Positions 3,101 through 61,572 of a stretch of DNA of 64,000 bases are shown piece by piece. A program made the position numbers and the translations under genes. Numbering within the stretch: the first letter of the stretch is position 1; the number at the start of each line of letters is the position of its first letter. Origin of the DNA: Polytrichum commune (lineage: Eukaryota > Streptophyta > Polytrichopsida > Polytrichales > Polytrichaceae); NCBI GenBank assembly GCA_950295325.1, contig OX485809.1:15686001-15750000 (forward strand), read 5' to 3'. The notes under the pieces were generated by a model. The model worked only from the letters and a program-made list of their open reading frames with translations. It did no database searches and was not told where the DNA came from.

Positions 3101-3881
3101 TCAAGTTGCAGGAATCTGGTTGATATTTTGTCCACATTGTGCTCACGGAGGACATCACCTTCTAAAGCCCAAGGTGGACATTTTTGTTGGGGCTCACTGC
3201 TGCTCCAGAAATCAGCATACAGGAAAATGGTTGAAAATTTGTGTGAACAATGCCAATTCTACAAAGCTTTCATCCTTATGATCAGATCTTCTGTAAGAAG
3301 TGCCAATTTTCATTAATGAGCTTCTAAATTGGACTAAACTGTTTTAGGTGATTTTGGGATGATTTTGCTTCCGCCTTCAATGTGCTAGTAGTATTCCCGC
3401 CCCAAATGTTGGCACATATTTGGGAGCTGTTTGGAGAGGAAGGAGTGTATATAGAATTTAAGTATGTACTTTAGTATATCGTTTGATCATCTCAAATTTT
3501 GTCTGAAACGAAGAGACTTTTCTTTCCAGATTTTCACAATGGAGTAATTTTTCATAGCAAAAAAATATTCTGGTAGGGTTGGACTGCCCTTGACAACTCA
3601 GGGTGGTATGAATGTTTCAATTGGGTACCCCGGGTACATAAAGGGTTAAGGTCTACCACAAGCAATTGGATCTCTATGCATATCATAGAGACATTTGTGC
3701 ATACGCTCAAAGCCCAATAGCAACTTAAAGACACAGGTAGTCATTGTGACATGACCCCATTTACATGTGTTGAGTCCAATCTACAATAGTCATAGATGGG
3801 ACTTGAACTTGTTAATAGGGTCATATTCTACTGAGTGCTTGTGTCAAATGGGAACAGCATGGTAGTACCCCATGCCTCATA
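147..3881. other. No supportable gene; possible exon fragments
   Basis: No ORF here is convincing by length or by a recognised motif. Two short pieces look exon-like. About 1051-1104 is preceded by a pyrimidine-rich stretch ending TTACAG and followed by GTGAGG. About 2493-2559 follows GCTCAG and stays open to a TGA (reads roughly DITEEELDFTLELQLHVTK). They could be the decayed 3' part of a gene or a non-coding transcript. I do not recognise either peptide. Confidence 0.2.
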
Positions 3882-4228
3882 AAATTAGGCGTTCGCATAA
3901 ATTAAATATATTGGCTTAATTTATGCGTGACATGCCCTTAGGGCGCCTAAAATAGGCGTTTTGCAAGAAATGGTTGGAAAATGCTCAGAATTGGACACTT
4001 GGAGTGTGTTTCGTATGGTGTTGTGTGGTGTGTTTTATTGTGTTGACAGTGAGAAGCCTCTGATCAGCGTGGACGACCATCAAGAGTGTGAACTATGTGT
4101 CGGATTGCGCAGACTTGTCGTCAAGTTGCACCCTAGACGTTTTCGGAATGTTATTTTTTTCATAATTTATGCATGCCACTCTAAAAATTTTATGCGTTTT
4201 ATGTATCTATTTATAGAACGCCTAATTT
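3882..4228. mobile_element. Small inverted-repeat element (MITE-like), TIR AAATTAGGCGTTC
   Basis: The 13-base word AAATTAGGCGTTC at 3882-3894 is repeated as its exact reverse complement at 4216-4228, giving a ~347-bp unit. Inside each end lies a second, looser inverted match (GCATAAATTA). No clear target-site duplication is visible, so the superfamily is unassigned. The open frame at 3961-4230 lies within the unit and has no recognised similarity. Confidence 0.55.
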
Positions 4229-5324
4229 AATCCACAATCCTAGTAGAGGTAGCAAGGGCATGCATTGTGTATGTATTTTGTTTTATGCAGTGGCATGGCA
4301 CATGGAGATGCTCTCAAGTCCAACTTTCATGTTGGTAGACTAAAATCTTGGAAGTTCGTGTGAACCCCTCCCAAAAGCCGATTCCATGCCTTTGCTATAC
4401 TTCCTATGAGAAGGTGGAGGTTTTTGTGCGAGGTGCACATTTTGTACCTTCTCATGTTCTAACACATGAAATTTTCATCAATGACATGAGCACGTTTTTT
4501 AAATGTCATTTAGTTTAGAGGTAGTTTTAGAGCTTTTGCTTCTTCTTTTCAAATATATATTTTTCGGCCAATTTTTGAAATAAGGCATGCTTTGAATTGT
4601 TGAAAAATAATAATTTTATTAAATTATTTAAAGAAACATTTCACCTTTAGAATATAGATGCAAATTTGAACTCCTTTAAATATAATTTTGTATGTATATC
4701 CATATTTATGTGTTCCAAATTTTTGTATATAGAGGTATTAATCTATACATGGTGCATGCATGTGATAAACTTTGTTTAATGTTATATGCACCCATGCCAT
4801 GAATTTGAAACTCTTTATATGTTAGGGACATCAAGGTGGAAACAATTTTGGCGACATGTTATGGCAAGTTTATGGTTCACTTGTATCATGGTGGACCAAA
4901 ATCCCACATGGAAGTTGGTTGTTAGAGAGGTCATGTTCAATCTTATCCTTGGAGTTCCAAGATGCCACATATGAAGTTGTGATAATATCAAAATACCATG
5001 ACTTTGTCAATAAGAGTGGCATTTGCAACTTGTCATGTAGCAACAATTGTCCTAATATGCCACCTTATGTAGTTGCTACCTAATCGTGAGATCATTTACG
5101 TGGGTTGATGATTCAAATAGTGTGAGCCAGAGGGAATCAATTGTATAGTGTATTGAATCTATAGGAACCACACAATTTCTACCTTCATGTCTTAGTTCCA
5201 CATGACGTAACTTTTGAGTAGAAGACAACTTTGAGTCATAACAGAACTTTCAACGTCAATATTCCGTTCGAATATTGTTGATGTAACACCCACAGTAAGG
5301 TATGTATACCCAAAACCTACATAC
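4229..5324. other. AT-rich spacer, nothing identified
   Basis: AT-rich sequence with short low-complexity runs around 4545-4640. No coding, RNA or transposon signature could be supported. Confidence 0.4.
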
Positions 5325-5328
5325 TTAA

Positions 5329-5919
5329 CCCCTAAAGGACCGTAAGGCCCCCAGGGGGCTTTTGATTGTAGAAAAGTGCAAATTGGATGAGATTGTTCCA
5401 AAGAAGCCCAAATTTGCGGGGAGAGGACCCTAGCTGTTTTTGCGAGATGGATCCAATGGTCTTTTCCAATCAGAAAATGATGAAGGATTGGATTTTTGGC
5501 GAATTCTTTGAGTTTTCAGTTTTTGGGCCCAATCTCATTGCTTGGAGACTTCAGAGTCCCATATCTTTTTTTCCACACCTCAGAATTTGACGAAAAAAAT
5601 TCCACATGAGGGTCATAATGTTCTTTACATGTGGTAAAAATTTCAGATGTTTTGGATCACTTCTAAGCAATCTGATTCCAGCATAAGTACGAAGTACCCC
5701 CTGCCCAAACAATTTCCATCAATCTTCTCAACGGTGGCAATTTCTCAGAAATTGTGCGATCTTGTCGATCTTTTTTTCATAACCAAGCTATGTAAGTCTT
5801 CTTTAGTTTCAACGGTGCCGATCGTGAAAATTACCCCACACTAATAAGAAATTGAGCTTGCTACAAGAGCTAATCAAGAAAACATGACCTAACCTAAAAC
5901 ACCCCCGGTCCTTTAGGGG
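5329..5919. mobile_element. piggyBac-like MITE with TTAA target duplication
   Basis: TTAA at 5325-5328 is followed by CCCCTAAAGGACCG, and the exact reverse complement CGGTCCTTTAGGGG ends at 5919 and is followed by TTAA (5920-5923). A TTAA duplication with termini starting CCC is the rule for the piggyBac superfamily. The 591-bp interior has no long ORF, so it would be non-autonomous. A shorter relative with nearly the same ends lies at 51278-51510. Confidence 0.7.
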
Positions 5920-6040
5920 TTAACCTCTAATCAAGACAATTGTCATACATATGGGGGCTTCAAATCTATGATAATGTGGTACATAGTGTTGGGTTTAAGT
6001 TTTGATTCGAGTCTGTGCTTGCCTACCTTTCTACAACTGA

Positions 6041-6242
6041 TTATCCCAATTAGTGTGTTATTATTCAAAGTCTTGCAATGCAATCATGTATTACTCGGGA
6101 GTCCAATTTTACTAACAAAAGTTGAATAAATTGTTTGGACATTCTAGAACATAGATGACTCTACTTGGTTGAATATTACATTCTCATTAAGTAGGTGTAG
6201 CACCGCGATACTCCGGATAGTAACATGCACTAAATGGGATAA
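6041..6242. mobile_element. MITE, TTATCCC family, copy 1
   Basis: Starts TTATCCCAATTAGTG and ends CACTAAATGGGATAA, an imperfect 15-bp terminal inverted repeat. The interior resembles the copy at 10708-10914 (shared words around the near-terminal TTGCAATGC or TACGCAATGC and ACTCCG). The target-site duplication is not preserved here (TGA before, CGG after). Confidence 0.6.
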
Positions 6243-6259
6243 CGGCTCCAAAACCGTTA

Positions 6260-6415
6260 ATGGAGGCAGCGATGGATGAAAGAAAAATGAGTCTGTTGAC
6301 TTTAGTTTGTGGATGAGAAAATTAATTTCTGTGCAGTTGGTGACAAGCATGTAAGTGTCCTCGTTGGGACATCATGATTGAGCCCACAGCCACACCTGGG
6401 TGCACATGAATGTAA
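6260..6415 (+). repeat. Dispersed repeat, copy 1 (relative at 8235-8450)
   Basis: Shares several word blocks in the same order with 8235-8450: GGTGGATGAA or GCGATGGATGAA, TCTGTTGACT, TGTGGATGAGAAA, GTTGGGACA, ATGATTGAGCCCA and GGGTGCACATGAA. No coding capacity recognised. Confidence 0.5.
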
Positions 6416-6563
6416 AAGTTTGGGGGCTTCAAAACTATGACACTAACTTATTATGGTACATAAAGTGTTGGTTTTAGGTCATGTGTTGGTTTTGGGTATA
6501 GGTATATGCAGCTGGAACCAATTCACATTTAATTTATTGTAGTAATGGAGTTGAGATGATTAT

Positions 6564-6928
6564 GATATGTGGTTGTTGTTCGGTTTGGTTTCAATGTTAC
6601 CCAACTCCTACATAGTAAAATTACCAAACAAAGCTTGTGTGTGTTACATTCACAAATCTATGCTCAAGCGTCAACAGAAACTAGATTTGAAGATCAAACC
6701 GCCCCTGATTTAGTTGTGGTTCTCAGAAGTGCATGTCTGTCAGTTCCTTAACTAAGTACGTTGATCCTCTCGATTGTGTGTTCATTATTGAGTGTTAATT
6801 GAAGACGTAGTCTGATGTCTTGTACACATGTGTTTATATGGTGTTTGTTCTTTGAATCTCATTAAACTACACACCGATTACATATAAAAGCCTGATTAAG
6901 AAAAGTAACCGAATAACACCCACATACC
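6564..6928 (+). mobile_element. Foldback MITE, GGTATGTGGG family, copy 1
   Basis: The unit starts GATATGTGGTTG and ends with AGTAACCGAATAACACCCAC then ATACC, which is the inverted form of the start. It aligns end to end with 12687-13046 and 58501-58872, sharing internal words such as ATTGAAGACGTAGTC and GATTAAGAAAA. About 365 bp, no ORF of note, no clear target-site duplication. Confidence 0.55.
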
Positions 6929-7404
6929 AGTAGGATGGGTTAGAGTCAGGGGCACCACATGGCAACCACCAACCATCAAACGGAGCCTTCCCATCCTCTA
7001 GGGTCTAAATTTGGCAAAACCAAAGATCAAGAATTCAAGATCAAATTTTGGTCTGAATTCTATCACCATGTGCGTGTGAAAGACAAAACTTTGACGATGG
7101 ACAATGAATGTGTGAGTACATGGTAGCTCAATAGATGGACGCCATGTTTAGCTCCACTTGAGCCCCCAATATTTTCTTCACAACACAATAGTTTCATGAT
7201 AACCAATTTATGGTGTGGTGCCCGTTTGGTGCACACAACATCAACAAGCAACTACATGATGGTCTCTTTCCAATGAAAGATGCTACGATTAAAAACACAT
7301 GTGATAATTTACACCTGCTTGTTCAAAAGTCCACAATACATACCTTGACTGGTCCCTATAAACGGAGAGTCCTAGAAGTCAAGGATAATTATGCCCATGT
7401 GATA

Positions 7405-8146
7405 CACATAACTCATGCCCCGATCATACCAAACTTCCCGTCCGTCCGGTTCCAACTGCGAAATTGCTAGGGATTATGTTGAGAAGTAGATGTTGGGCCA
7501 CCACTTTTCACACTATTACAGCCAGAGATGCTGACGGATGGTGCCAAAATTGGCTAGTGTGATCAACCCCTCACACCCCGATCACACCAAACTTTCCGTC
7601 CGTCCGGTTCCAACTGCGAAATTACTAGGGATTATGTTGAGAAATAGATGTTGGGCCGCCACTTTTTCACACTATTACAGCCGGAGATGCTGACGGATGG
7701 TGCTAGAAGTGGCTGGTGTGATCAACCCCTCACACCCCAATCACATCAAATTCTCCACCTGGTTCCAGCCATGAAATTGCTAGGGATTATGTTGAAAAAT
7801 AGATTTTGAACCACCACTTTTCACATTCTTACAACCGGAGTTGCAGACGGGTGGTGCCAGAAGTGGCTAGTGTGATCAACCCCTCGCACCCCGATAACAC
7901 CAAACTTTCCATTCGGCTCCAGCTGTGAAATTGCCGGGGACCATGTTGAGAAATACATGTTAAGCCACCACTTTTCACTTTATCACAACTAGAGATGCTA
8001 ACAAATGATGCCAGAAGTGGCTGGTGTGTGATCAACCCCTCACACCCCGATCACACCAAACATTCCGTCCAGCTCCCGCTGTGAAATCGTTGGCGAGATG
8101 CTGACGGATGGTGCTAGAAGTGGCTGGTGTGATCAACCCCTCCACC
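7405..8146 (+). repeat. Satellite-like tandem array, ~157-bp unit, ~4.6 copies
   Basis: The block CACACCCCGATCACACCAAA recurs near 7411, 7572, 7731, 7885 and 8041, giving periods of 154-159 bp. Each unit also holds CACTTTTCACACTATTACAG and GAGATGCTGACGGATGGTGC. The last copy has lost its middle. Neighbouring units differ by scattered substitutions, so the array is not very recent. Confidence 0.9.
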
Positions 8147-8234: not shown

Positions 8235-8450
8235 CGGTGGATGAAAAGGAAGCAAATCTGTTGACTCCACTCTGTGGATGAGAAAGCTAATTCGGTCGGG
8301 TGGGCAAGGCTCCGTAGTAAGCAGTGGGTGGCAGGCAGTGCAGGGCAGGCAAGGCAGGGCAGGGCGGGCAGGGCGGGCAGGCAGGCAGGCAAAGTGTCCT
8401 TCCTTGTTGGGACACCATGATTGAGCCCATGGGTGCACATGAACGCAAGG
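8235..8450 (+). repeat. Dispersed repeat, copy 2, containing GGGC-rich expansion
   Basis: Same word order as 6260-6415, but carries an extra ~110-base block rich in GGCAGGC and GGGC units between the conserved flanks, so the GC-rich part looks like a local expansion within this copy. The minus-strand open frame across it is low-complexity (Ala/Pro/Cys/Leu) and is not called as a gene. Confidence 0.5.
8357..8377 (+). other. G-quadruplex motif
   Basis: Five GGG runs separated by loops of only 1 or 2 bases (CA, C, CA, C), preceded by further GGC repeats. This is a canonical, very short-loop quadruplex motif on the + strand. Any regulatory role is inference. Confidence 0.8.
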
Positions 8451-9239: not shown

Positions 9240-9420
9240 CTTAGAGTAGACGACATACCCATTTCCGACCCCCCCCCCCCAACAAAAAAAAATCCTTAAT
9301 ACATAAGAGTCCCCTCAAGCCATGAAGTTCCACACATATAGCCGTCATTTTCTAACGTGATGGAAAAGGCTGTAAAGTTTTGCACATGTCTCCATCACAT
9401 CTAGCATGATGGAAAAAAGC
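9240..9420. repeat. Inverted repeat arm B of interleaved pair
   Basis: Pairs in inverted orientation with 9738-9905. Shared blocks include the 15-base CATCACGTTAGAAAA, TGACGGCT, ACTC(T)TATGTATTAA and a C tract matching a G tract near 9868-9885. Because the partner lies outside the A loop, the two inverted repeats cross. Confidence 0.75.
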
Positions 9421-10914: not shown

Positions 10915-11744
10915 TCAATGTTAGATGTAAGCCTAATATTATTTGTCATTCTTTGTTAAAAATAATTAAAAAAAAGAAGTTTGGGCATTATAGAGTTATA
11001 ATGTTGTGATTACTTTCACTTATTGTGTGTGTTTTCGCCCTAACTTCAACTATCCATGACAACATTTCATTGCGGAGATGTTAGGATGCACAATACACCA
11101 AACAAATTTTTTCAATCTTTGGCTCATATTTCATCCAAATTTCAAGCATGCTTGACAATACTTGTAATCTTTTTCGTAAGAAGTGTTATTAGAAAAGTTG
11201 CCATGGTACTAATATTAAATACCATTTGACACTAAATACAATATTTAGTGCAGTACTTTTAATGTATAGGCCCGAGTTCTCTTTCATATATTAATTAGCA
11301 TTGTTCATGTGTTACAAAAATGAAGGTTGCAAGGTTAGAAAGCAAAGACTCTAGGAAATAAAATAAATAAAAATACTAAAAATAAAAATAAAAATATACT
11401 TTGGTCTCAAACTAAAGTTCTATTCCCGTATGGGTTAGTGTTTCAAATCACTTGGGGAGTTGTGCGAGCAATTTGTATTGCAAATAAAATAAATTCCTCA
11501 TAATCAAGATTACAGTGGTTTCCGTTGCCTGGGGGGTGGACTCTTCATTTGGAAACCTAAATGACGTGTATGGGTCACTATAAAATTAGACCACCCCTTC
11601 TTACACTCAAGTTAGTTCGTACGTGGTACGAAGAGTCCACCCCCTTGGTTCAGGTGAAACTCTTTAGGTTGATATGAGCAAATGGAGGTTTATAAAGTAT
11701 CAAAACATGAGAGTTGATTGAGTTTTGAATCTGAAAAGTTTTCT

Positions 11745-12093
11745 CTTGGGGGGGGGGGGGGTAGTCATTGGTTGGAGTAGCGATATACGTGCGAACAAAT
11801 GATAGGGTATTTTTAAAACATGGGGGCAAAAAATTATAAATGAACTTAAGAGTAATATAGGGTATCAAAAATGACACTGGACATCTTTAAAGTACTATAG
11901 GGTATGGAATAATAGGTAATTTGAGATTATAAGTAGTGCAAGCCATTTTTCTACTAACCCAAAGTAGAAAATTACATAATGATAGCATGTGGAAAAAAGA
12001 AGAGAATTGAAAGTAATACCCCCCTATAAAATAATGGTTGTTTGCACCTATATCCTTAACTTTTTAACACACTGACCCCCCCCCCCCCCCCAG
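11745..12093 (+). mobile_element. hAT-like MITE with poly-G/poly-C termini, copy A
   Basis: The unit starts CTT followed by ~15 G and ends with ~17 C followed by AG. It is flanked by an exact 8-bp duplication AGTTTTCT (11737-11744 and 12094-12101). An 8-bp duplication fits the hAT superfamily. The ~349-bp body is AT-rich and non-coding. The body recurs at 24439-24777 (inverted) and 55704-56047. Confidence 0.8.
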
Positions 12094-12143
12094 AGTTTTC
12101 TACATGATATGGAAAGACAAGTTAGTTTGGATGAACAATGGTA

Positions 12144-12391
12144 CTCCCTCCATCCCAAAATGATTGTCCGATTTATATGGCCAACTAGAAATTTGAAGCT
12201 CAAAGTCAAATAAATTCACATCATACTTTCTATATCAAGAAGTTTTTCGACATTGCAACTTCCAGGGGCGTTTCGGAGTAGTTGTTTCTTATTTTAAGAG
12301 TCATACTTACTGCTACTCAATCAACGGTTAGTAGACCTTATTAATCTCGCCAAAGTTAGAAACATGAACAATCATTTTGAGACAGAGAAAG
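12144..12391 (+). mobile_element. Stowaway-type MITE (Tc1/mariner), copy 1
   Basis: TA (12142-12143) is followed by CTCCCTCCATCCCAAAATGA. The far end is the inverted, slightly diverged form and is followed by TA (12392-12393). TA duplication with a CTCCCTCCGTCCC terminus is the plant Stowaway signature. 248 bp, non-coding, opposite in orientation to the copy at 13143-13427. Confidence 0.85.
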
Positions 12392-15348: not shown

Positions 15349-16031
15349 CCGGGGGGGGGGGGGGCACGATACTAAGCACATGTGACTTTACATGTGTGCA
15401 CAAAAGGGATATTAATTTAAACTTTGCCATACTAAGTATACATATGCTACACAAATTATAACTTGTAGTTATGTACACATGTATTGATGACTTTTTAAAA
15501 ATACACAACATTTGTACTTGTATGGTAGTGTCACTAGACTTTATAGAATGCATAGTAAGTTTGGTAATCGTTGGGTGAAGTATAAGGTTCCAATTGACTT
15601 GATGAATCATTTATAAAACATGGAGATTGACTTATATTGGTATCGGAAAGGAACCAACAACAACTGGACATACGATCTTACTGATCATTCGATGGTAGAC
15701 TTAGAAACAATAGTCGCATACTTAGATGCTTATAAGTTACACTTGAAAAAGTCTTCAACGACTTTATTGATGAATGCTAGAGTTTTGCATTGTACATATG
15801 ATAGGGCTTCATTGTTATTCAAAAGTATATTTGTATACTTATGTTGATAACAATATATGAGTGTAATTTACTTTTTATGTATACACATTGTCACTTGTAT
15901 TTTTTACATTGAAAATGTACGTGTATTGTTTGATTTTACAGAAAAATAGAATTATATAATTTTTTTAGAATATATTACAAATGCACATGATCCTTGATTT
16001 CAATGAAAGGTGCAACCCCCCCCCCCCCCCG
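15349..16031. repeat. Segment bounded by inverted homopolymer G and C tracts
   Basis: A CCGGGGG tract of ~12 G near 15351-15362 and a C tract of ~14 followed by GGG near 16018-16032 bound ~680 bp of AT-rich sequence. The layout resembles the poly-G-ended MITEs, but the body differs and no target-site duplication is visible. It may be another element or coincidence. The frame at 15620-15847 inside it is unrecognised. Confidence 0.35.
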
Positions 16032-21031: not shown

Positions 21032-21439
21032 CACGGGGAGGTCACTTCATTGTCAAGTTGACACCACGTGCGGACAAAGTTTGCTACCCCTATATTACAT
21101 GCCATATATAATTTTAAGATTTATGATATTTTTTCTACATATACATAACCATTGATAGTATCTTTTGTATACTTTTTTGAAATTTGTAGTCATCTTTATT
21201 TTTTTTAGTAATTGTTTTAGTTCAATTCTGTGTCATTCTAGTTAGAAACGGTATGTTTTATAAAAAAACAAATCATCAAATTTAGTTACCACTTTTAACT
21301 ATGTCATAGGTACTGTGTATATCTACTCATGAAAAAAATTTGATAAAATTTTGACCCATTTTGGTGGTGCAACTTACCAAAAGAAGATTTTTTTGGCCGC
21401 ACGTGGTGTTCAACTTGACAATGGAGTGATCCCCCTGTG
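21032..21439. mobile_element. hAT-like MITE with long TIR and 8-bp duplication
   Basis: Opens CACGGGGAGGTCACTTCATT and closes with the inverted form; the ends pair over ~45 bases, through GTCAAGTTGA and CACCACGTGCGG. CGGGTTCA occurs immediately before (21024-21031) and after (21440-21447), an exact 8-bp duplication as in hAT elements. The 408-bp body is AT-rich and non-coding. No second copy was noticed in the window. Confidence 0.8.
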
Positions 21440-22595
21440 CGGGTTCAAGGTATTTTGTTTGTAATGGAATAGATACGATGGATAGTTTTCTCGGGGCGAT
21501 CACACCCCCATATGTTTCATAACCATGTGCAATAATGGGGTATTTAATGAGGGGATATTTATGCACCTTTCAATATTTTTTCCCTCCCTATTTGTATACC
21601 AAAAGCTACTTTGACGTATTTTTTAACACCCTATATTTATTTTTAATTTTTAGAGAGGCTAATTTTTGGCATAATTTTTTTAATATAAATTATAAAAGTA
21701 CCAAATAATGAACATAATACTATAGCATTGCAAAACCAACTATGTGAGCAACAAACACTTCATAACATTCAAATTATCATTCATTTGGTTTTGATTAGTA
21801 ATACCAATCCTAAATCATTCAAAGTATCATTCAAAACACAACCAATAACACTTGGATACTAGTTAAAGGGTTACCAATAAACATGGAAGTAACAAAATAT
21901 ACAAGCTAAAATAGACAAGTTGTAAACACGGATAGAACAAAATAAGAAATACAATCATTTGTGACAAGACATGAAATGTTGCATAACTACCTACTCCAGA
22001 AAAAATAAGGTTGCATTCAAATACAAGAAAGCCAAATACAAAATTTTAAAAAGGTTTACTTGAATTGTGTTCACAAACACATTCAACTATAGTCCCATTA
22101 AAACCTTGTAACAAACATTTACAATGTGAAGCGTTAGGATACAACTATGCACCCTCCAATACTATCAAGATACATGTTCAACATCCTCTACACTGTCATG
22201 ATAAGTTTAATAAATTGTGAGAGGTCTAGCACCAATGACGTCAAAATCATAATCATTCTACCGATCCTACTACACACTTTTAGGGGATCCTATGTCTATG
22301 ACCTTTTTTTTTTTTTTTTAAGATTATTGTGATGAAGGAACTATCCACCACCTTATTTTACATATGACATGTAGGGGTGTATTTCCAATGCCATAGTAGA
22401 TCTAACAAAATTATAAATTGTACCCTAAATGAATTAAATTAAGCCTATTTTTGTTTATCTCATGTGGGTTTCTAAAATTCTGATAGTCACCTCCCCGAAA
22501 TAGTTTTATGGCCCTCAAGGACCATTCGGGTGGTCACATGCTTTTTGTACGTGCATTATCAAATTATCTTCTTTAATATCATTTCATTTTAAGCA

Positions 22596-23060: not shown

Positions 23061-24438
23061 TTTAACAATTGCGATCCTTCTCATTCCTTAGTTTGATTTT
23101 CATGTGCCACCAAACCCAAATGCCCACTCAACTTTCAGGGTCAAAAAGACAATGCATCGCAATCCAATAACACCAACGGCGGATCACAAAAACAAATGGG
23201 AGAGCGTTGGACTCATTGACACTAAATCATTGCTAATCATAATCTAGGATTTGTAGTGTTAATCAATATAGTCTTCAAGGAGGATATCGCATAGCGTGTC
23301 ACAATTGGCAGCATGCTACATTGCACATGCCCCAACTTCACAAAAGTACCATTCAAGCTTTGGGATAGAAAGGGAAATGGGTACAGTGCAAACAATTTAT
23401 TATGTGTTTAGATTTCTATGCAAGGTGGATTACGATAACGAGAGGTTCATTTATGCTCCAACATACTCCTACAACAAGGTCATGCGACTACTTCAATGTG
23501 CTGGTGTTGTAAAGTGTGAGTAATGTCCCAAGTGTTGTGTTTAGTCGCATATTTGAAAATGTCAGTAAGTGACACGTATTGGTCTGGATTGTTATGATAA
23601 AAATCAACAATGGACTTGTAGTTTGCAAGTATCTATGATACTAGGCCCCATTCATTCTTGTTCATTCAAAGCGTCAGTATTTTAAGATGATAAAAGTGAA
23701 AGTAAATGAATGCTTAATTTAGTACATGAACCCTAAAAATGTTCACATTTATTAAATTTGACTTTATCTCTCACATATTATCGCTCACAGCTCATGTGTT
23801 ACCACTCACTGCTCATTGCTTATATCTTAGCTTCCCTCTAGGCTACATGTATGCTTTGGTAACATGAGAAATAGCTCCACACATTTAATAGTAAGCAGAT
23901 AAGTGGCCCTAAATTCGTATTTGCAATCTAGATTAGCCACACACAACACAAATTAAGTTGGGGGATGAAGTTGTCATGATCAGATGACAAGCGAATATTA
24001 ATTAGTACAAAGAATGAGAGTGTATATTTGATGATTTATGGTCAATCTATCTATCGAATATCTAATTTTTGAAGACCTAAAGGCATGTTTGTGTAGACCC
24101 TCATGCATATGAAAAATCATGTTAATCTCTCTATTTTATATTTTAAAAAATGATTTATATATAGCAAAGAAGTAACAATACCCTTATTTACATCCTATAT
24201 ACACCTTTTCCATGCCTATGTGGGATCGAATGAACATGAAGACTTGACCAAAAAATGTTATTATTTGAGTGGTGAGTATTGAGTGATGAATAATAAATTA
24301 TATGCAACGAGGGTGGAATTATCTTCTAAAATACACGTTCTCAATATCCTAGAACCATGGTAAGTTGGTATGAAATTGTTAAACATGGTGGTTGGCTCAA
24401 ACAACATATAATCCTTGATATATATTTCTCCTTTGAAA

Positions 24439-24777
24439 CTCGGGGGGGGGGGGGCAGTGTATTAAAAAGTTAAGGATATAGGTGCGAACAACCACTATTT
24501 TATAGGGGGGTATTACTTTCAATTCTCTTCTTTTTCTCACATGCTATCATTATGTAAATTTCTACTTTGGGTTAATAGAAAAATGTCTTGCATTATTTAT
24601 AATTCCAAATTACCTATTATTCCATACCCTATAGTACTTTAAAGATGTCCAGTGACATTTTTGATACCCTATATTACTCTTAAATCCATTGATAATTTTT
24701 TGCCCCCATGTTTTTAAAATACCCTATCATTTGTTCGCACGTATATTGCTACTCCAACCAATGACTACCCCCCCGAG
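24439..24777 (-). mobile_element. hAT-like MITE with poly-G/poly-C termini, copy B (inverted)
   Basis: Starts CTC followed by ~13 G and ends CCCCCCCGAG. It is flanked by an exact 8-bp duplication CTTTGAAA (24431-24438 and 24778-24785). The 339-bp body is the reverse complement of copy A (for example CCAATGACTACCC at its right end). The right C tract is shorter (about 7) than in the other copies. Confidence 0.85.
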
Positions 24778-25026
24778 CTTTGAAACCACTCTAAACATCG
24801 TATTTAGGAAAAGTGCGCCAAAGTAAGTGTATTATTGTTCCTATAAATGTATCGTAATTTCTGCACATTCGGTTTCAATGAACAAGTTTGAATATTATTG
24901 TGTATTTGTAGCAGAGGGTTTTGTATTTTGTAGCATCAACTAGTACCATTGAATACAATAAAAATAAAGATAATCAATTACGTGGTTTAACACATTAATA
25001 TTGTTGAGTGAGTACAACTATGTTTA

Positions 25027-31838: not shown

Positions 31839-32989
31839 AATTTTAGAGGAACTTGTAGAATGTATCCCAGTTTAACGAACAAAAACTGGAAGATATCAAC
31901 ATGTAGTAGATGGTTAGATTTGGAAGCACTAGCATATCGATAGATTATGTCCAAAAATCTCCTTGGGCGTTGGAATATCCTTGTGCACATGCATTACAAT
32001 ATCAAAAAGTAATGAAAGCGGTGAAAATATCTAAATGTTGCCGTTCTATGCACATGCTCACATGCCTAGAAGTATGGATTGTTGTGTTAATCTTTAATGT
32101 TAGTGATTCCAAAATTTGCAATGAAATGAAATTCAGGAAAAGTTCAAAAAATTCAGGAAGTCGAAAAGGCTACCGGGATTGAAAGTACATCAGGATGGTT
32201 TCAAAAAACCAACTAATTCTTTAGAGTGCAGTAGCCTCCGTGAAATAGAGGCTAATGTTAACTGATCAATCTAATTGAAAGAAAGACTTGTAAGTCTCAG
32301 TTCGATCCAGCAGTGACACTCATGAAGGTAAGTGGGGTAAAAGGACATCCCATCTTCTGTATACTGCTGTGCTAGTTTAACAATGGCATGTGCAGGACTC
32401 TGCATAGTTTTACAATACCCGAATGAAGGTACCCAACTCTCGATGCCGATGCCTATGGGGTCAGTAATTTGAAATATATATTCTAATCACTTTAATGGCA
32501 CTTATGTGACATCACTTTTCCACCACATCGCGGATGCCTTCTTCGTTCAAGGAAACACGCCTCTTAGTTTGAGATACCAATGTTGAGTCCCGAAGCAAAA
32601 CTCATCAAAGGGTTGTTTTGGATCCCAAATTTTTTGGACCCATACCCCAATGTAAAATCACCCTTCAAGCAGGCATATCTTAAATGGTATTTTTTTCTTG
32701 CTCGCTATAGAATACGACTATGATTCACAAACCCTAAATTTTGGTTGATAAGAAAACGTAAATGAAGAAGCCAAATACAAACACACAGAAGTTTGCAACA
32801 TGCCCTTAAGTGCTATGGATTTCCAAAAGAGCCCACCTCCCAAAGGAGGCATAACACCCTATGTTGCATCACGGAATACCATGATCAGCATAAGGCTAAC
32901 GGGCTCACATTCATGTCGGTACTTAGATACATGCGTATTTTATTCTTTTTCTCTATTCTGAATTATCAAAAGATGATGGGCACACATGA

Positions 32990-35256: not shown

Positions 35257-37280
35257 TTGCTATTGCGTTTAGGTGGTCCTCCACTATCACTCCTAATTAA
35301 GGACTAGGATTATGCAACCTTGTGCAAATGTCTTGAAGTTGCAAGTTACGGATAGCAAGCTTATGTCACAATCCTCTACATTTATATATTAATTAACATT
35401 GATTTCACATTGAATCAATCGCATTAAACTGTATCATTGAATCAATGCATACCAAATATAGGGTTTCAATTTAATATTGGGTTTCTACATATATAGTTGG
35501 AAGACCTGTAATCTCGAATTACTAACCTTAATCAATGTTAAATGATCACTAGCTACATGTCAAGCTAATATTGAAGTGAGACTTATCCTAAGGGTTACAT
35601 AATGTTATTGATACAACTCTAGTCAATTGCATTTGAGATGTTATAAGGTAGATGGTGCTAAAACCAACACCGCACCCCAAAACCAACATCTTATGATCAT
35701 GCATGGGAAATATATATTGATTATGAGAATGTCCATCCACCTAAACATTAGATTTTATGTCGGTTTTGGATCATCTACCGATAAAACTTCAAACCCTTAC
35801 AATTTCTGCATATAAATTTCAAACATTTTTTGGATGTGTTGGAATCCTCTATCAATTGCTAACGAATGACATATAAAATTTTAAATTACAATTATAGCAT
35901 CTCTACTCAAACCTTAAGGTGATGATTTCACTTGCTCTAGAGTTGTTCCTCTAGAGTTTCACCTTGTCATACTCTTTGTGAAGCAAGCTTGTTGTTGAAA
36001 TCGACATACAAATCACAACTCTATGGTTAGATTTCTCAACACCACAAGCATATGAGTCCTAGGCAATTGACCTACGTCATTGGAAACTTGTCCTCTGTAA
36101 CTAGAAAATTTACAAATCTAGCACTGTGGTAGATATGCATTGTTCTTTTATCAACGCGGGACGATTGCATAGAACTCATATGCTAGTAGTGCAAAGTAGT
36201 ACAAAGTAGTACAACACATTCCATATCCCAAATTTTCCAATAAGTTTGAATCTTTGGAGGTTTAGTCTATCAATACACATCAATGAGCAGGGAGAACCGA
36301 TTGCTAGTTACAAATGAACCAGTTGAGTTTGAGAAATAGCGAGATGAAGTTCAAAACTTCAGGAAAATTTGCCCATCATTTTAGAGGAATCTATGGAGCA
36401 TAGAACAAATCATCAAAGAAAAGCCGAAAAGATCACAACATGTAAGGTAGAAATACCATAACCCGTTAACCACCCTCTAGCCGTGCATTAGACCGCCGTC
36501 ATAATGGTGAAGTGCCATTTCTAAAACCGATCATGGCTCGGCGGCAACTTCAATGCGTGTACACTTAGTGCAGCCAATGGGAGTCAAGTGTTAATGTACT
36601 CATGGGGTAACCGATTTAGGCGATGTTCTGTATGGAAATGCGGATTACCGTGTACAGTAGGGAGAATTTAGTGAACGAGTAGGGGTTTGGACAACTTTCC
36701 ACTTTGAAAAATTGTACCATTTTTTGTATAGGGCAGAAAAATATGAAACAACTTGCATGCATTCTTCATGAATCCTTCTCGTCTATCTTGAAAAACTATC
36801 TCATGATTGTCAGACCAGATCTTCAATGCGTATCACCTTATTTTCACGGGTTATGGTATTCCTACCTTAACCAGTCGGACTTGGAAAAGAATAGGATTTT
36901 GACCGGTTACGGCCCAAAATCTCCATGGACGGACACTCCTACACTTGATTCAAGTGAATGTAGTATAATATTACTTTTGAGGTTTCGGTTGAGGTGAGAA
37001 GAGCCTACAACTGAAATATTGCCCTTAACTTAGGGTTTGACCACACACTAGGGTAATGTAAACCCTCCCCACATGTGGTCTCTCACTTTTATTAATTACC
37101 AGGCTGCAAGCCCACAAACCTCGGGCCTTCAATGCTTCCCAGGAACTTGATGAGCTCTTCTGTGACATGCCAGGCTTGAACACTCACTTTACACTACCTA
37201 ATCATTTACTAATCATCCTTTCGCATGACAGGACTCTCGCTCCAATTTATGGTGACATGATGAGATTAATATGTCTAAGG
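35257..37280. other. Spacer, nothing identified
   Basis: AT-rich non-coding stretch. Several short frames (35627-35815, 36704-36997) lack recognisable motifs. No repeat shared with the rest of the window was seen. Confidence 0.35.
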
Positions 37281-37532: not shown

Positions 37533-39248
37533 TCACAATGTGTCATTTAGATCAGGTAAAGACCTCTCACTAGAGACAAAGAAGCTTCTAATGTCACATT
37601 GTTTTAGTGATGTTAAATGTCCAACACCAATTCTAATGAGTTTGTCATGGATGTTTTCCATTCCTAACAACTCATGAGTGTTGAAAATCTGAGAACCTTG
37701 GCTAGCCATAAAATTCAAAACATCTTTAGCATATTTTTGTGCATCGCTTAGCTTCACTACTTTAGACTCATCATCATTGCTATCAACAATCAATGGGTCT
37801 TCTTCCATGGAATCAAGTACATGTTCGCCATCTTGCACTAATTGCACAAGCTCCTCAGTAGAATATTCCACCTCAAAATCATCTTCACCTTCCATGTTTA
37901 TGTACTCTAAAGGACTAAGCTTTTCTATAGGCTTGCCTTCAACATCCAAACCCAAATTCAATGCGGCGATGAGATTGCCCAATTCCAAAGCTGCTTCCTC
38001 CATTTTGGACTTCATACGTTCATCAGAATTGTTGATATCTGCATTCCACGCTGCAGGCAATATGGCAGACTTTCTCCAACAATTTCTAATGGTTTGATCA
38101 TCTAATTCATGCCATGCCGCCACACACCATAGCATTGCTTGAAATAGATCAACATTCAGTTTCCCCAAATCTTCATTTGAGTTATCAATTTGTTGCAAAG
38201 TCCAGGCAACAAGCTTGCGTTTATAGCACATTTTGAATGCTGCAATCACTCCTTGATCCAAAGGCTGAACAACTGAAGTCACATTTGGTGGAAGAAACAA
38301 GATAGTGATATGGGAGAGTACAAAAGCATTAAATCCATCTATAACTTTTTTGACCTCACCATGAATATCATGGCTTCCTACATTATCCATAATAATGCAA
38401 TTTTTTCTATCTTGCAATGCCATTCTTCGGTTCTCACTCTTCACCCAATGTGTAAAAACATCACCATTCATCCAGGCTGAATTGTTAGAATAATAGTGTA
38501 CTATACTATTTGGATCAAACTTCCGAGGAAAGCATCTGGGACGTGTTGATTTGTGAATGAAAACAAGCTTCAATCGCTCCTTCCCTGAGATATTAGTGCA
38601 AAGCCCCAATGTCACACGGTCCTTCTTCTTTTTATTTCCTTTTGCCTTCCCAATATTCAAAGTCTTGCAAGGAGAGGCTTTATAATACAAACCTGTCTCA
38701 TCAAAATTGAAGATGTCTTCAGGATCATATTTCTTCAATATGAATGGGATCTTTGCCATGGCCAACGCAGCTCCAACTCCATCTACATCTCCACTTTCTC
38801 CATGCAGATAATAACACTTTATTCCATGTCGAGTTTTGAAATTTTGCAACCACCCATGAGAAAGCTTGAACTCGGTATCAGATATGCCAAATGAATCCCT
38901 CAATTCTGTAGCCTTGTGCATAATGACATCATCAGTTACAACTCCCCTTCGTGCCCTAACCTGTCCAAACCATAAAACCAAAGCTTTTTCAAGCTGAGGC
39001 CATTTTCCAACTCGAGCACGTCGTACATTGCCTTCACGCACACATGTATCCACGTTCATCCACTTCTCTTTTGAATGAAGAATCTTGGAAATAGTGGTCC
39101 GATTCACAAGCTTGAATTTATGTTGGTCCACCATATATTTTGCAAGGTCTTCATGTTTCAAACCTAGATGAGCTTTGTGGACTTCACAAATTTTCTTCTT
39201 TTCAGAGTTTGATAAATCCACTCGTTTGTGCGTGGATTTACTTGCCAT
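37533..39248 (-). CDS. pogo/Tigger-type transposase (CENP-B-like, DDE_1)
   Basis: Intact 571-codon frame. Residues ~8-62 look like a CENP-B/Psq N-terminal helix-turn-helix (LSNSEKKKICEVHKAHLGLK). Residues ~75-145 are a second, Tc5-type HTH (HGWLQNFKTRHGIKCYYLHG). Residues ~165-400 are a DDE_1 catalytic core. Candidate catalytic aspartates are D183 in NFDETGLYY, D288 in IIMDNVGSH and D331 in PLDQGVIAAF. The D288-D331 gap is about ten residues longer than I would expect for Tigger proteins. The C-terminal ~170 residues are acidic with LSDAQKYAKDVLNFM, as in host-domesticated jerky/Tigger proteins. The protein would bind the element's TIRs and cut and paste it into TA sites. Lying between perfect TIRs, it is a transposon gene and not a domesticated one. 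The start is the first ATG, just downstream of an AT-rich leader. Confidence 0.93.
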   Translation of the reverse strand: MASKSTHKRVDLSNSEKKKICEVHKAHLGLKHEDLAKYMVDQHKFKLVNRTTISKILHSKEKWMNVDTCVREGNVRRARVGKWPQLEKALVLWFGQVRARRGVVTDDVIMHKATELRDSFGISDTEFKLSHGWLQNFKTRHGIKCYYLHGESGDVDGVGAALAMAKIPFILKKYDPEDIFNFDETGLYYKASPCKTLNIGKAKGNKKKKDRVTLGLCTNISGKERLKLVFIHKSTRPRCFPRKFDPNSIVHYYSNNSAWMNGDVFTHWVKSENRRMALQDRKNCIIMDNVGSHDIHGEVKKVIDGFNAFVLSHITILFLPPNVTSVVQPLDQGVIAAFKMCYKRKLVAWTLQQIDNSNEDLGKLNVDLFQAMLWCVAAWHELDDQTIRNCWRKSAILPAAWNADINNSDERMKSKMEEAALELGNLIAALNLGLDVEGKPIEKLSPLEYINMEGEDDFEVEYSTEELVQLVQDGEHVLDSMEEDPLIVDSNDDESKVVKLSDAQKYAKDVLNFMASQGSQIFNTHELLGMENIHDKLIRIGVGHLTSLKQCDIRSFFVSSERSLPDLNDTL

Positions 39249-39719
39249 TGGAAGTACCTATATTTGCCAAACCATTCCCCTAAATGAGCACTCAATATAA
39301 GTCACCATGATAATTTAGCAAAACTGGTGCATTGAATTGTTTTAGCAGCAACATTATTCATGTATCATCACAAATTCGATCAAAATAAGTAACGCACTGT
39401 ACCATAGGTGAGCGCAGATGAACAACACGTATCACAAGTCAGTAGACTGCCACATTTGATTGAAATGCCTCCAAGATTTTGAGTTGGTTACATAATTTTT
39501 TTGATCCTGAACACAAACAATGTCATGTATTGCCCAATTTACAATCGAAGATGTGAAACTACGAGCCAACATTCCTGCAAGTTCATACCATGAACCGATG
39601 AAATACAAAAAGGAACCTCAATGCTATTTCCAGGCATCACTCTACTTCAGCACCATGCTACCCATTCCAACAGACATTCTCAAATCAAAAGAAAACTCAA
39701 ACGAACCGTAATTGTCATG

Positions 39720-55703: not shown

Positions 55704-56047
55704 CTCGGGGGGGGGGGGGGTAGTCATTGGTTGGAGTAGCAATATACGTGCGAACAAATGATAGGGTATTTTAAAAACATGGGGACTAAAAATTATAAAT
55801 GGACTTAAGAGTAATATAGGGTATCAAAAATGGCACTGGACATCTTTAAAGTACTATAGGGTATGGAATAATAAGTAATTTGGAATTATAAGTAATGCAA
55901 GCCATTTTTCTATTAACCCAAAGTAGAAATTTACATAATGATAGCATGTGAAAAAAAGAAGAGAATTGAAAGTAATACCCCCCTATAAAATAGTGGTTGT
56001 TCACACCTATATCCTTAACTTTTTAACACACTGCCCCCCCCCCCAAG
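55704..56047 (+). mobile_element. hAT-like MITE with poly-G/poly-C termini, copy C
   Basis: Starts CTC followed by ~14 G and ends ~11 C followed by AAG. The body is nearly identical in order to copy A (TAGTCATTGGTTGGAGTAGC, ATAATGATAGCATGTG). CAAGCTCG occurs just outside each tract, so either the element ends in pure G/C with an 8-bp duplication CAAGCTCG, or it has CTC/AAG tips and the junction was trimmed. Confidence 0.78.
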
Positions 56048-56124
56048 CTCGACATTTCCTCATGATTGACTTGTTGAAAACGTGTGTCATACACTATGAT
56101 AACCAAGCTCGTAAATGACACCAC

Positions 56125-60305: not shown

Positions 60306-61572
60306 TGAACTCCCCCGTATCAAAAGATCCAATACCAAACAAAAGCCAATCCATGGGCACTCCTCTCAGGTGTATCTACTCATAGCAGTTGTATGATGGT
60401 CCCCGACACCAAATACGGCGCAAAAACTACCTGAATATATTTGTACCACTCATTCCCGGCTTTCTACGATCTTTGAACATGGTAGATTTTAGAACTACGT
60501 TCATGAGTTTGTCACCATCTTGTTGCCAAGAATGAGTGACAAAAATCATAAGACCGCGACATGATCCTGCCGTAGTGATGGAAATGCTTTCCAAAAAGTC
60601 GCCGTATGCTTGGGTGTGTGCTCTTTACTTTCAAAAGGACCAACCTAACTCCATGTGGCATCCATCATAGAAACCTCAAAAAATTTAGAATATTAGGGTT
60701 GGTCTACTAGAAGGTTCATAGGTCGTTGACACTACACTACGAGGTAGATTTTAGGTTTTCAAATCTATTGTGGGGTTAGATTTGAACACTCAAAAAGTAT
60801 AGCACTTAATGGTAAAGAAGCGATGGCAAAAAATTGTTATCTTTGTAGTGGTCACTTCCAAGTCGGTCCCCGAGATCAATCAATTTTGAACTAAGCCTTT
60901 AAGAACCAACTTCGTACTTGAGGTTAAGTGGTTCGTGGTTAGGTATGGATTTTAAGGACGGACACCAAAAAGACATGTATTGAAAAAAGATTAAGACAAG
61001 GATGAGAATCTTTAACTTTAATAACAAACAAGATATTCATACAAGTTCTAAACATTTATGACTCGGTCAAATGGCCACGGGCGATTTTCATATTTGCCAA
61101 TCATCTCACATTAATTGCATATTTCATATTCTATGAGAAGTGGGTGCAACCTGCAAAACGTGTCCAAACAACACACACCTCTACCTTGTTACAAAAACCC
61201 TTAGCCACCAGCATTACATTATTCAGCTTCATAACAATGTTATGTGGAGCTGACACTATTCCACACACTATTCTTGAGTATTCCCCACATTCAAATTGAA
61301 TAATGTTATGGATATGAATAATGTTATGAGCCTCATACATGAGGTTGAATAAATGATAGTTGTCGCCAGTGTCCAAAGAGATTTCTAGACATAATCAGTA
61401 GAGATCCTAGTGTTTCCAAGTCCAACCAGTTACACAGTGACATCTTATGGTTCTTCTTTATTAAATTGGGGTATAATCTATAAAATCCTCTATATAATCG
61501 GTAATTTTCGTAAAGCCTTGAACTTCAACCGATTTTTTTTCAAAATCAACGACTTCATTTGTGCTACGATGA

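Follow-up and report, generated by a model that had tools for sequence, protein, structure and literature searches.

What kind of transposon gives rise to a short repeat that begins in a run of G and ends in a run of C, and how would a transposase find such an end? The question is raised by a 64-kb stretch of the Polytrichum commune genome (the window; C7:15686001-15750000, in a genome of 407.8 Mb, about 406 Mb of it in seven large contigs), in which an initial annotation had described a family of miniature inverted-repeat transposable elements (MITEs) with homopolymer termini, had assigned it to the hAT superfamily through its 8-bp duplications, and had considered transposase recognition of a nearly information-free terminus or of a G-quadruplex (G4) or triplex-forming end. 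The copies and their target-site duplications (TSDs) lie in the window as follows, percentages being identity to the family consensus.

11737-11744, plus strand: TSD AGTTTTCT left of copy 1, from flank comparison
11745-12093, plus strand: MITE copy 1, CTT G14 - core - C16 AG, 95.7%
12094-12101, plus strand: TSD AGTTTTCT right of copy 1, from flank comparison
24431-24438, minus strand: TSD of copy 2 (CTTTGAAA on the plus strand), from flank comparison
24439-24777, minus strand: MITE copy 2, inverted, CTC G7 - core - C13 GAG in element orientation, 97.6%
24778-24785, minus strand: TSD of copy 2 on the other side (CTTTGAAA on the plus strand), from flank comparison
55704-56047, plus strand: MITE copy 3, CTC G14 - core - C11 AAG, 99.1%
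56048-56055, plus strand: right flank CTCGACAT of copy 3, its matching left TSD missing

The coordinates originally assigned to the three copies are exact, as are the two 8-bp duplications described for copies 1 and 2. At copy 3, where the TSD is not intact, the left flank passes directly into CTCGGGG, and the left duplicate (CTCGACAT) was presumably lost through a deletion running from the CTCG of the TSD to the CTCG of the element. The window also holds ACTCCCTCCATCCCAAAATGATTGTCC at 12145-12175, which we take to resemble a Stowaway-type element end, and an open frame of ~573 residues at 37533-39257 with DDE_1 and Tc5-type HTH domains, that is, a pogo/Tc5-like transposase.

Genome-wide, 82 copies were examined, comprising the three in the window, 39 other core matches and 40 of 63 left-end matches. 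The core search gave ~1,600 first-look candidates, among which 40 were scored (window copy 3 being one of them), with 99-100% identity over core positions 1-312 in 39 and 1-310 in one. The left-end sample was drawn with the pattern CTCG7TAGTCATTGG, the first 40 listed of its 63 matches being fetched without regard to core identity; the 42 copies selected via core identity are accordingly those not selected by tract length. All but one of the copies could be parsed (81/82; L062, truncated at core position 136, was left out), and they share a plan of 8-bp TSD, CTC, G tract, ~312-bp core, C tract, GAG and TSD. With element boundaries set by the CTC/GAG caps, the TSD is exact over 8 bp in 68 of 81 copies and matches in at least seven of eight positions in 77, the remaining four, at 6/8 or worse, being L018, L026, L059 (a match shifted by one base) and window copy 3. 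Flanks paired across different copies gave no exact match in 6,480 comparisons and a 7/8 match in five, and shifting the register by 1-4 bases reduced the exact TSDs to 0 or 1. The duplications thus adjoin the caps, and the tracts therefore lie inside the element, as had been proposed. The 5' cap is CTC in 72/81 and the 3' cap GAG in 64/81, with CTT and AAG as the main variants; the target is weakly constrained: of 77 TSDs, 31 have T as their second base and 34 have A as their sixth.

Tract length varies between copies in the manner that slippage would give, from 6 to 23 on the left (the 42 copies unselected on tract) and from 6 to 22 on the right (all 81 copies). Left and right lengths are not correlated across the 42 copies (rho -0.28, p 0.08), nor is C tract length correlated with identity across 39 copies (rho -0.03). 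The elements are short (~335-350 bp) and non-coding, with terminal inverted repeats (TIRs) and many near-identical copies genome-wide, and the observation of a MITE family ended by G/C tracts is confirmed as correct and robust. With a mean K2P distance to the consensus of 2.1% in 39 copies, the family is young. The 63 copies with a left tract of seven G, combined with the fraction of unselected copies having exactly that length (5/42), lead to a rough estimate of ~500 MITE copies whose left end is intact.

A large locus ending in the MITE right end (87% over 167 bp), with a left end and TSD in the adjoining stretch, led to a complete element, here AUT1 (C5:50081001-50089423, minus strand, 8,423 bp). 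It runs from CTC G8 to C8 GAG, carries the TSD GTTTAAGG on both sides, and contains an open reading frame (ORF) of 1,513 codons from a TTG (1,518 from stop to stop, nt 3130-7683). The MITE consensus aligns end to end with its two termini, positions 1-167 with AUT1 1-166 at 94.0% and positions 168-335 with AUT1 8257-8423 at 87.6%, so that the two ends of AUT1 cover the whole consensus with nothing left over, as expected of derivation from an autonomous-type element. The junction between the two parts is identical in all three window copies, whose alignments to AUT1 are given below.

11754-11917, plus strand: copy 1, left part, AUT1 nt 4-166, 93.9%
11917/11918, plus strand: deletion junction of copy 1, from the alignment to AUT1
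11918-12082, plus strand: copy 1, right part, AUT1 nt 8257-8420, 84.8%
24447-24611, minus strand: copy 2, AUT1 nt 8257-8420, 85.5%
24612-24774, minus strand: copy 2, AUT1 nt 5-166, 92.0%
55713-55876, plus strand: copy 3, AUT1 nt 4-166, 92.7%
55877-56041, plus strand: copy 3, AUT1 nt 8257-8420, 86.8%

Three such large loci were fetched, two of which are complete. The second, AUT2 on C3, spans 6,880 bp (CTC G9 to C15 GAG, TSD TGCCACCC) and has a homologous ORF of 1,536 codons, while the third, L127, has a broken frame and no identifiable ends. Neither AUT1 nor AUT2 has any other frame of more than 166 codons in its six frames. A genome search with the protein gave 124 matches (121 scored out of 223 candidates), and nine lie in stop-free frames of at least 1,400 residues. 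A relative on C6 (L130) is 99.1% identical to the AUT1 ORF over 1,422 residues. The intact ORFs and this 99%-identical relative suggest that AUT1-type elements have been copied recently. Since AUT1 differs from the MITE by 6-12%, it is a member of the family and not the direct parent. It is highly probable that the MITE is the product of a single internal deletion in a family of 7-8 kb cut-and-paste transposons, whose ~1,500-residue protein is likely the transposase. Separately, AUT1 nt 1925-2147 matches the window at 61378-61562, 36275-36445 and 31840-31962 with 71-77% identity, and the 5' region of AUT1 may contain an unrelated repeat; elsewhere on C5, 14 equal-scoring chlorophyll a/b-binding matches are clustered within 100 kb (1751760-1846160). 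The genome as a whole gave 58 chlorophyll a/b-binding matches and 13 to dynein heavy chains, 12 of the latter above the cut-off, a combination that points to a non-seed plant or an alga.

The affiliation of this protein was sought through sequence and predicted structure. Pfam hmmscan of 11 aligned pieces from six loci gave no match above the cut-off, nor did NCBIfam for the AUT1/AUT2-type protein; PHROGs gave no match to the AUT1-type protein, 108 pattern matches in viral contigs included no relative, and searches of the PDB by phmmer or profile found no sequence match except coiled coils (GCN4 and troponin at E 0.6-1.5, rejected). Sub-threshold Pfam matches to SnoaL_2 (E 0.08), AT_hook (0.18), Polysacc_deac_2 (0.29) and Sushi (0.41) were taken as chance. 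The Pfam library includes models for KDZ, Mutator/MULE and Merlin transposases, and none of these domains was matched by the AUT1-type protein; the P/THAP9 models likewise gave no hmmscan match to it, and the P-type RNase-H model (PF21787) had no match in the genome or in the control genomes, which makes the control uninformative. The protein does carry conserved acidic motifs (AEDETK, SDGDSRRR and GSDxCExFFS). A relative of ~30% identity, L131, keeps AEDETK, NPLxxxLPRLV, GHASDGDSRRR, QDxxHxGKKLxNP and GSDxCExFFS, and the decayed homologue L123 does not keep GSD.

A model of the AEDET-to-GKKL segment built from six sequences (pLDDT 54, pTM 0.57) may be read as having the RNase-H-like order of helices and strands plus one extra strand. 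In a Foldseek search of this pLDDT-54 model against the PDB, the Drosophila P-element transposase occupied ranks 1-2 of 614 (6p5a, E 0.0069; 6pe2, E 0.0078; TM-scores 0.25-0.28), with no match below E 0.001. The third-ranked match is an unrelated Hsp90-type domain (E 0.035), ranks 4-11 are mostly RAG1, Mos1 and Transib, and many later matches are unrelated. A model of a 603-residue core (pLDDT 39) yielded nothing useful, its best match being RAG1 at E 1.0, and did not reproduce the P-element ranking. We take the protein to be a putative DDE/D-type transposase, possibly a remote relative of that of P elements, the low-confidence fold match being a lead and not a result.

P elements make 8-bp TSDs, as does Sola1, and the P transposase is about half as long as the protein described here. 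The likeness to P elements and THAP9 consists in the TSD length and in the weak structural similarity that puts the P-element transposase first and second for the putative RNase-H segment, whereas the doubled protein length, the CTCGGG caps, the plant host and the absence of a P/THAP9 Pfam match set the present elements apart. The chances are even that the protein is a member of an already described superfamily overlooked by the models, the candidates being Sola1, Novosib, a group related to Zisupton/KDZ and strongly diverged P elements. In favour of such a membership, Zisupton is described with 8-bp TSDs and TIRs in PMC12730594, both features being shared here, Sola1 is listed for a moss, Physcomitrella, in Table 1 of PMC9033089 (and reported from it also in PMC10741241) and likewise comprises elements of several kilobases, and the P element is the best fold match. 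Against it, the protein has no Pfam or NCBIfam match above cut-off, which would also set it apart from Zisupton (KDZ), and the review PMC10741241 gives Sola a 4-bp TSD versus the 8 bp found here. Two reviews recognize six or seven superfamilies of plant cut-and-paste TIR transposons (PMC9033089, PMC10741241), and PMC11939994 names P among the TIR superfamilies and reports it absent from the plant studied. Neither homopolymer-ended MITEs nor land-plant P-type transposons were seen among the titles, abstract openings and passages of the openly accessible literature consulted. A new superfamily of plant elements, its ~1,500-residue RNase-H-type transposases only remotely related to P and its homopolymer ends capped by CTCGGG and flanked by 8-bp TSDs, may have given rise to several MITE families that reach hundreds of copies in this non-seed plant; that description has a somewhat less than even chance of being right, with a divergent P group and Sola1 as the other candidates.

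The same ends are common to further element families. A search for CTCG7 excluding the MITE returned 77 matches, and among 20 loci fetched, eight hold further elements with these caps and TSDs of 8 bp.

L105: 816 bp, exact TSD
L106: 287 bp, exact TSD, right end C5
L107: 287 bp, TSD with one mismatch
L108: 1,266 bp, exact TSD
L109: 1,209 bp, TSD with one mismatch
L111: 284 bp, exact TSD, right end C4
L116: 417 bp, exact TSD, right end C3
L118: 1,311 bp, exact TSD

L118 encodes the C-terminal part of the AUT1-type protein and is near full length in 40 of 40 scored matches, and partial matches to L108 lead to longer copies, in which no ORF piece reaches the Pfam cut-off. At eleven of the 20 loci (L100-L104, L110, L112-L115 and L119), ~1.5 kb of sequence contained no corresponding end with its TSD, and these were set aside; L117 was rejected as a family member, its TSD being exact but its end CCCCTTG, and a hAT domain near L109 was rejected as its gene since it lies outside the element. 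The window itself contains remnants of such elements. At 15351-16030, G14 and C15 runs bracket what is left of the C-terminal part of a large related protein (L133 type; 70% over 63 residues at 15530-15718), with no CTC/GAG caps or clear TSD seen by eye. On the minus strand, within 21063-21535, a degraded stretch at 21063-21435 is 80% similar to the L116 family over 385 bp, and beside it lies a second fragment, from the end of that family (21494-21535).

These families bear on how the terminus might be recognized. The idea of a nearly information-free end does not hold, given an end of CTCGGG(G), related runs as short as C3-C5 and subterminal repeats on the left. Of the subterminal motifs, which were picked by eye, ATAGGGT has three copies within the first 160 bp of the MITE and as many in that stretch of AUT1; the first 300 bp of AUT1 also contain three, versus none in 6.4 kb of its interior, and AUT2 has two in its left 300 bp and one in its right 300 bp. 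The last 300 bp of AUT1 lack the motif, which therefore cannot mark both ends, so that something else must tell the right one. Because related ends are as short as C3 (L116), C4 (L111) and C5 (L106), the basic terminus was apparently close to CTCGGG(G), with a run that grew later, probably by slippage. Long G/C runs are common in this genome: outside the MITEs, the window has 12 runs of at least seven bases versus 2.8 expected under a first-order model, and, in ~63 kb, nine of at least ten (10-15 bases; at 9269, 9876, 15351, 16016, 32991, 52749, 55395, 56984 and 60140) versus 0.03 expected, and 124 kb of hAT loci contain 65 runs of at least seven and 16 of at least ten, many in G-rich tandem repeats. 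Such repeats, of the GGACGGGGGAGC type, occur in hAT loci L084, L085, L091 and L092, which have long frames.

It is accordingly unlikely that the homopolymer itself is recognized, as a G-quadruplex, a triplex or the ligand of a poly-G-binding domain. Left tracts of at least six in all 42 unselected copies and the tracts of AUT1 (G8/C8) and AUT2 (G9/C15) are in keeping with that idea, whereas the short right ends of L116, L111 and L106 and the frequency of long runs outside the elements speak against it. The proposed G4 end fares no better, as just five of the 42 unselected left tracts reach 15 bases (four of them unbroken G), and a within-tract quadruplex therefore cannot be required. An expanded run within a capped terminus explains the homopolymer end better than information-free recognition.

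That the large ORF is a captured or passenger gene and not the transposase is improbable, somewhat more so than recognition of the homopolymer: its protein does lack a family match, but it is the sole frame above 166 codons in both complete elements, fragments of it persist in L118, L120, L123 and L124, and it combines conserved acidic motifs with strands and helices arranged in RNase-H-like order in the weak model.

Assignment to hAT, the initial reading, found still less support, and it is very improbable that any of this genome's numerous hAT transposases mobilizes the MITE. The 8-bp TSD, short size and high copy number are shared with hAT MITEs, and the genome is rich in candidates (150 hAT dimerisation-domain matches scored among 1,060); the TSD length, however, fits hAT, the P superfamily and Zisupton/KDZ alike. 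The suggested search for an autonomous hAT with CTYGGGG ends covered 20 of the 150 loci and found a CTYG5+ left end in none, a C5+RAG string in five and both end types in none. In one of them (L092), a C8GAG end ~4 kb from the hAT domain could be counted in favour of hAT mobilization, but it appears to be a related family's right end, situated upstream of that domain, and was rejected as a hAT end. The four loci with visible ends of their own (L087, L089, L094 and L097) terminate in CAGAG or CAGTG, unlike the CTC/GAG caps and G/C tracts of the MITE. AUT1 argues strongly against hAT, since it supplies both MITE ends and encodes a protein without a hAT domain match (PF05699, Pfam hmmscan); against five of the hAT transposases encoded in this genome, hhalign put the probability at 0.1%, both profiles being shallow. 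The short repeats look like hAT elements but are probably not. As for the tracts being assembly artefacts, homopolymer length is error-prone in sequencing and the assembled tracts may be a base or two too long or too short, but TSDs outside the tracts in 77/81 copies together with conserved caps indicate that the tracts are real, and an artefact is hardly credible.

Under the preferred reading of an internally deleted cut-and-paste transposon, the transposase would recognize two signals, the CTCGGG(G) cap and the subterminal repeats, which are ATAGGGT and, in some members of the family, GTGCGA, and would cut at the CTC/GAG boundary, which is where the element ends; insertion would follow at a staggered cut, 8 bp wide as judged from the TSDs, in a loosely chosen target. 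Replication slippage would lengthen or shorten the short G run of the terminal repeat, long G/C runs being common in this genome.

An 8-bp TSD is easily taken for that of hAT, and because the full-length relative here is not hAT by the tests made, typing the MITEs of such genomes by nothing but the length of the TSD may assign them wrongly. Recent activity of the family, if real, would allow a direct test of how an end with a homopolymer is recognized. Should the protein prove P-like, the P group would be extended into land plants; if it is not, these moss elements would encode a new kind of transposase.
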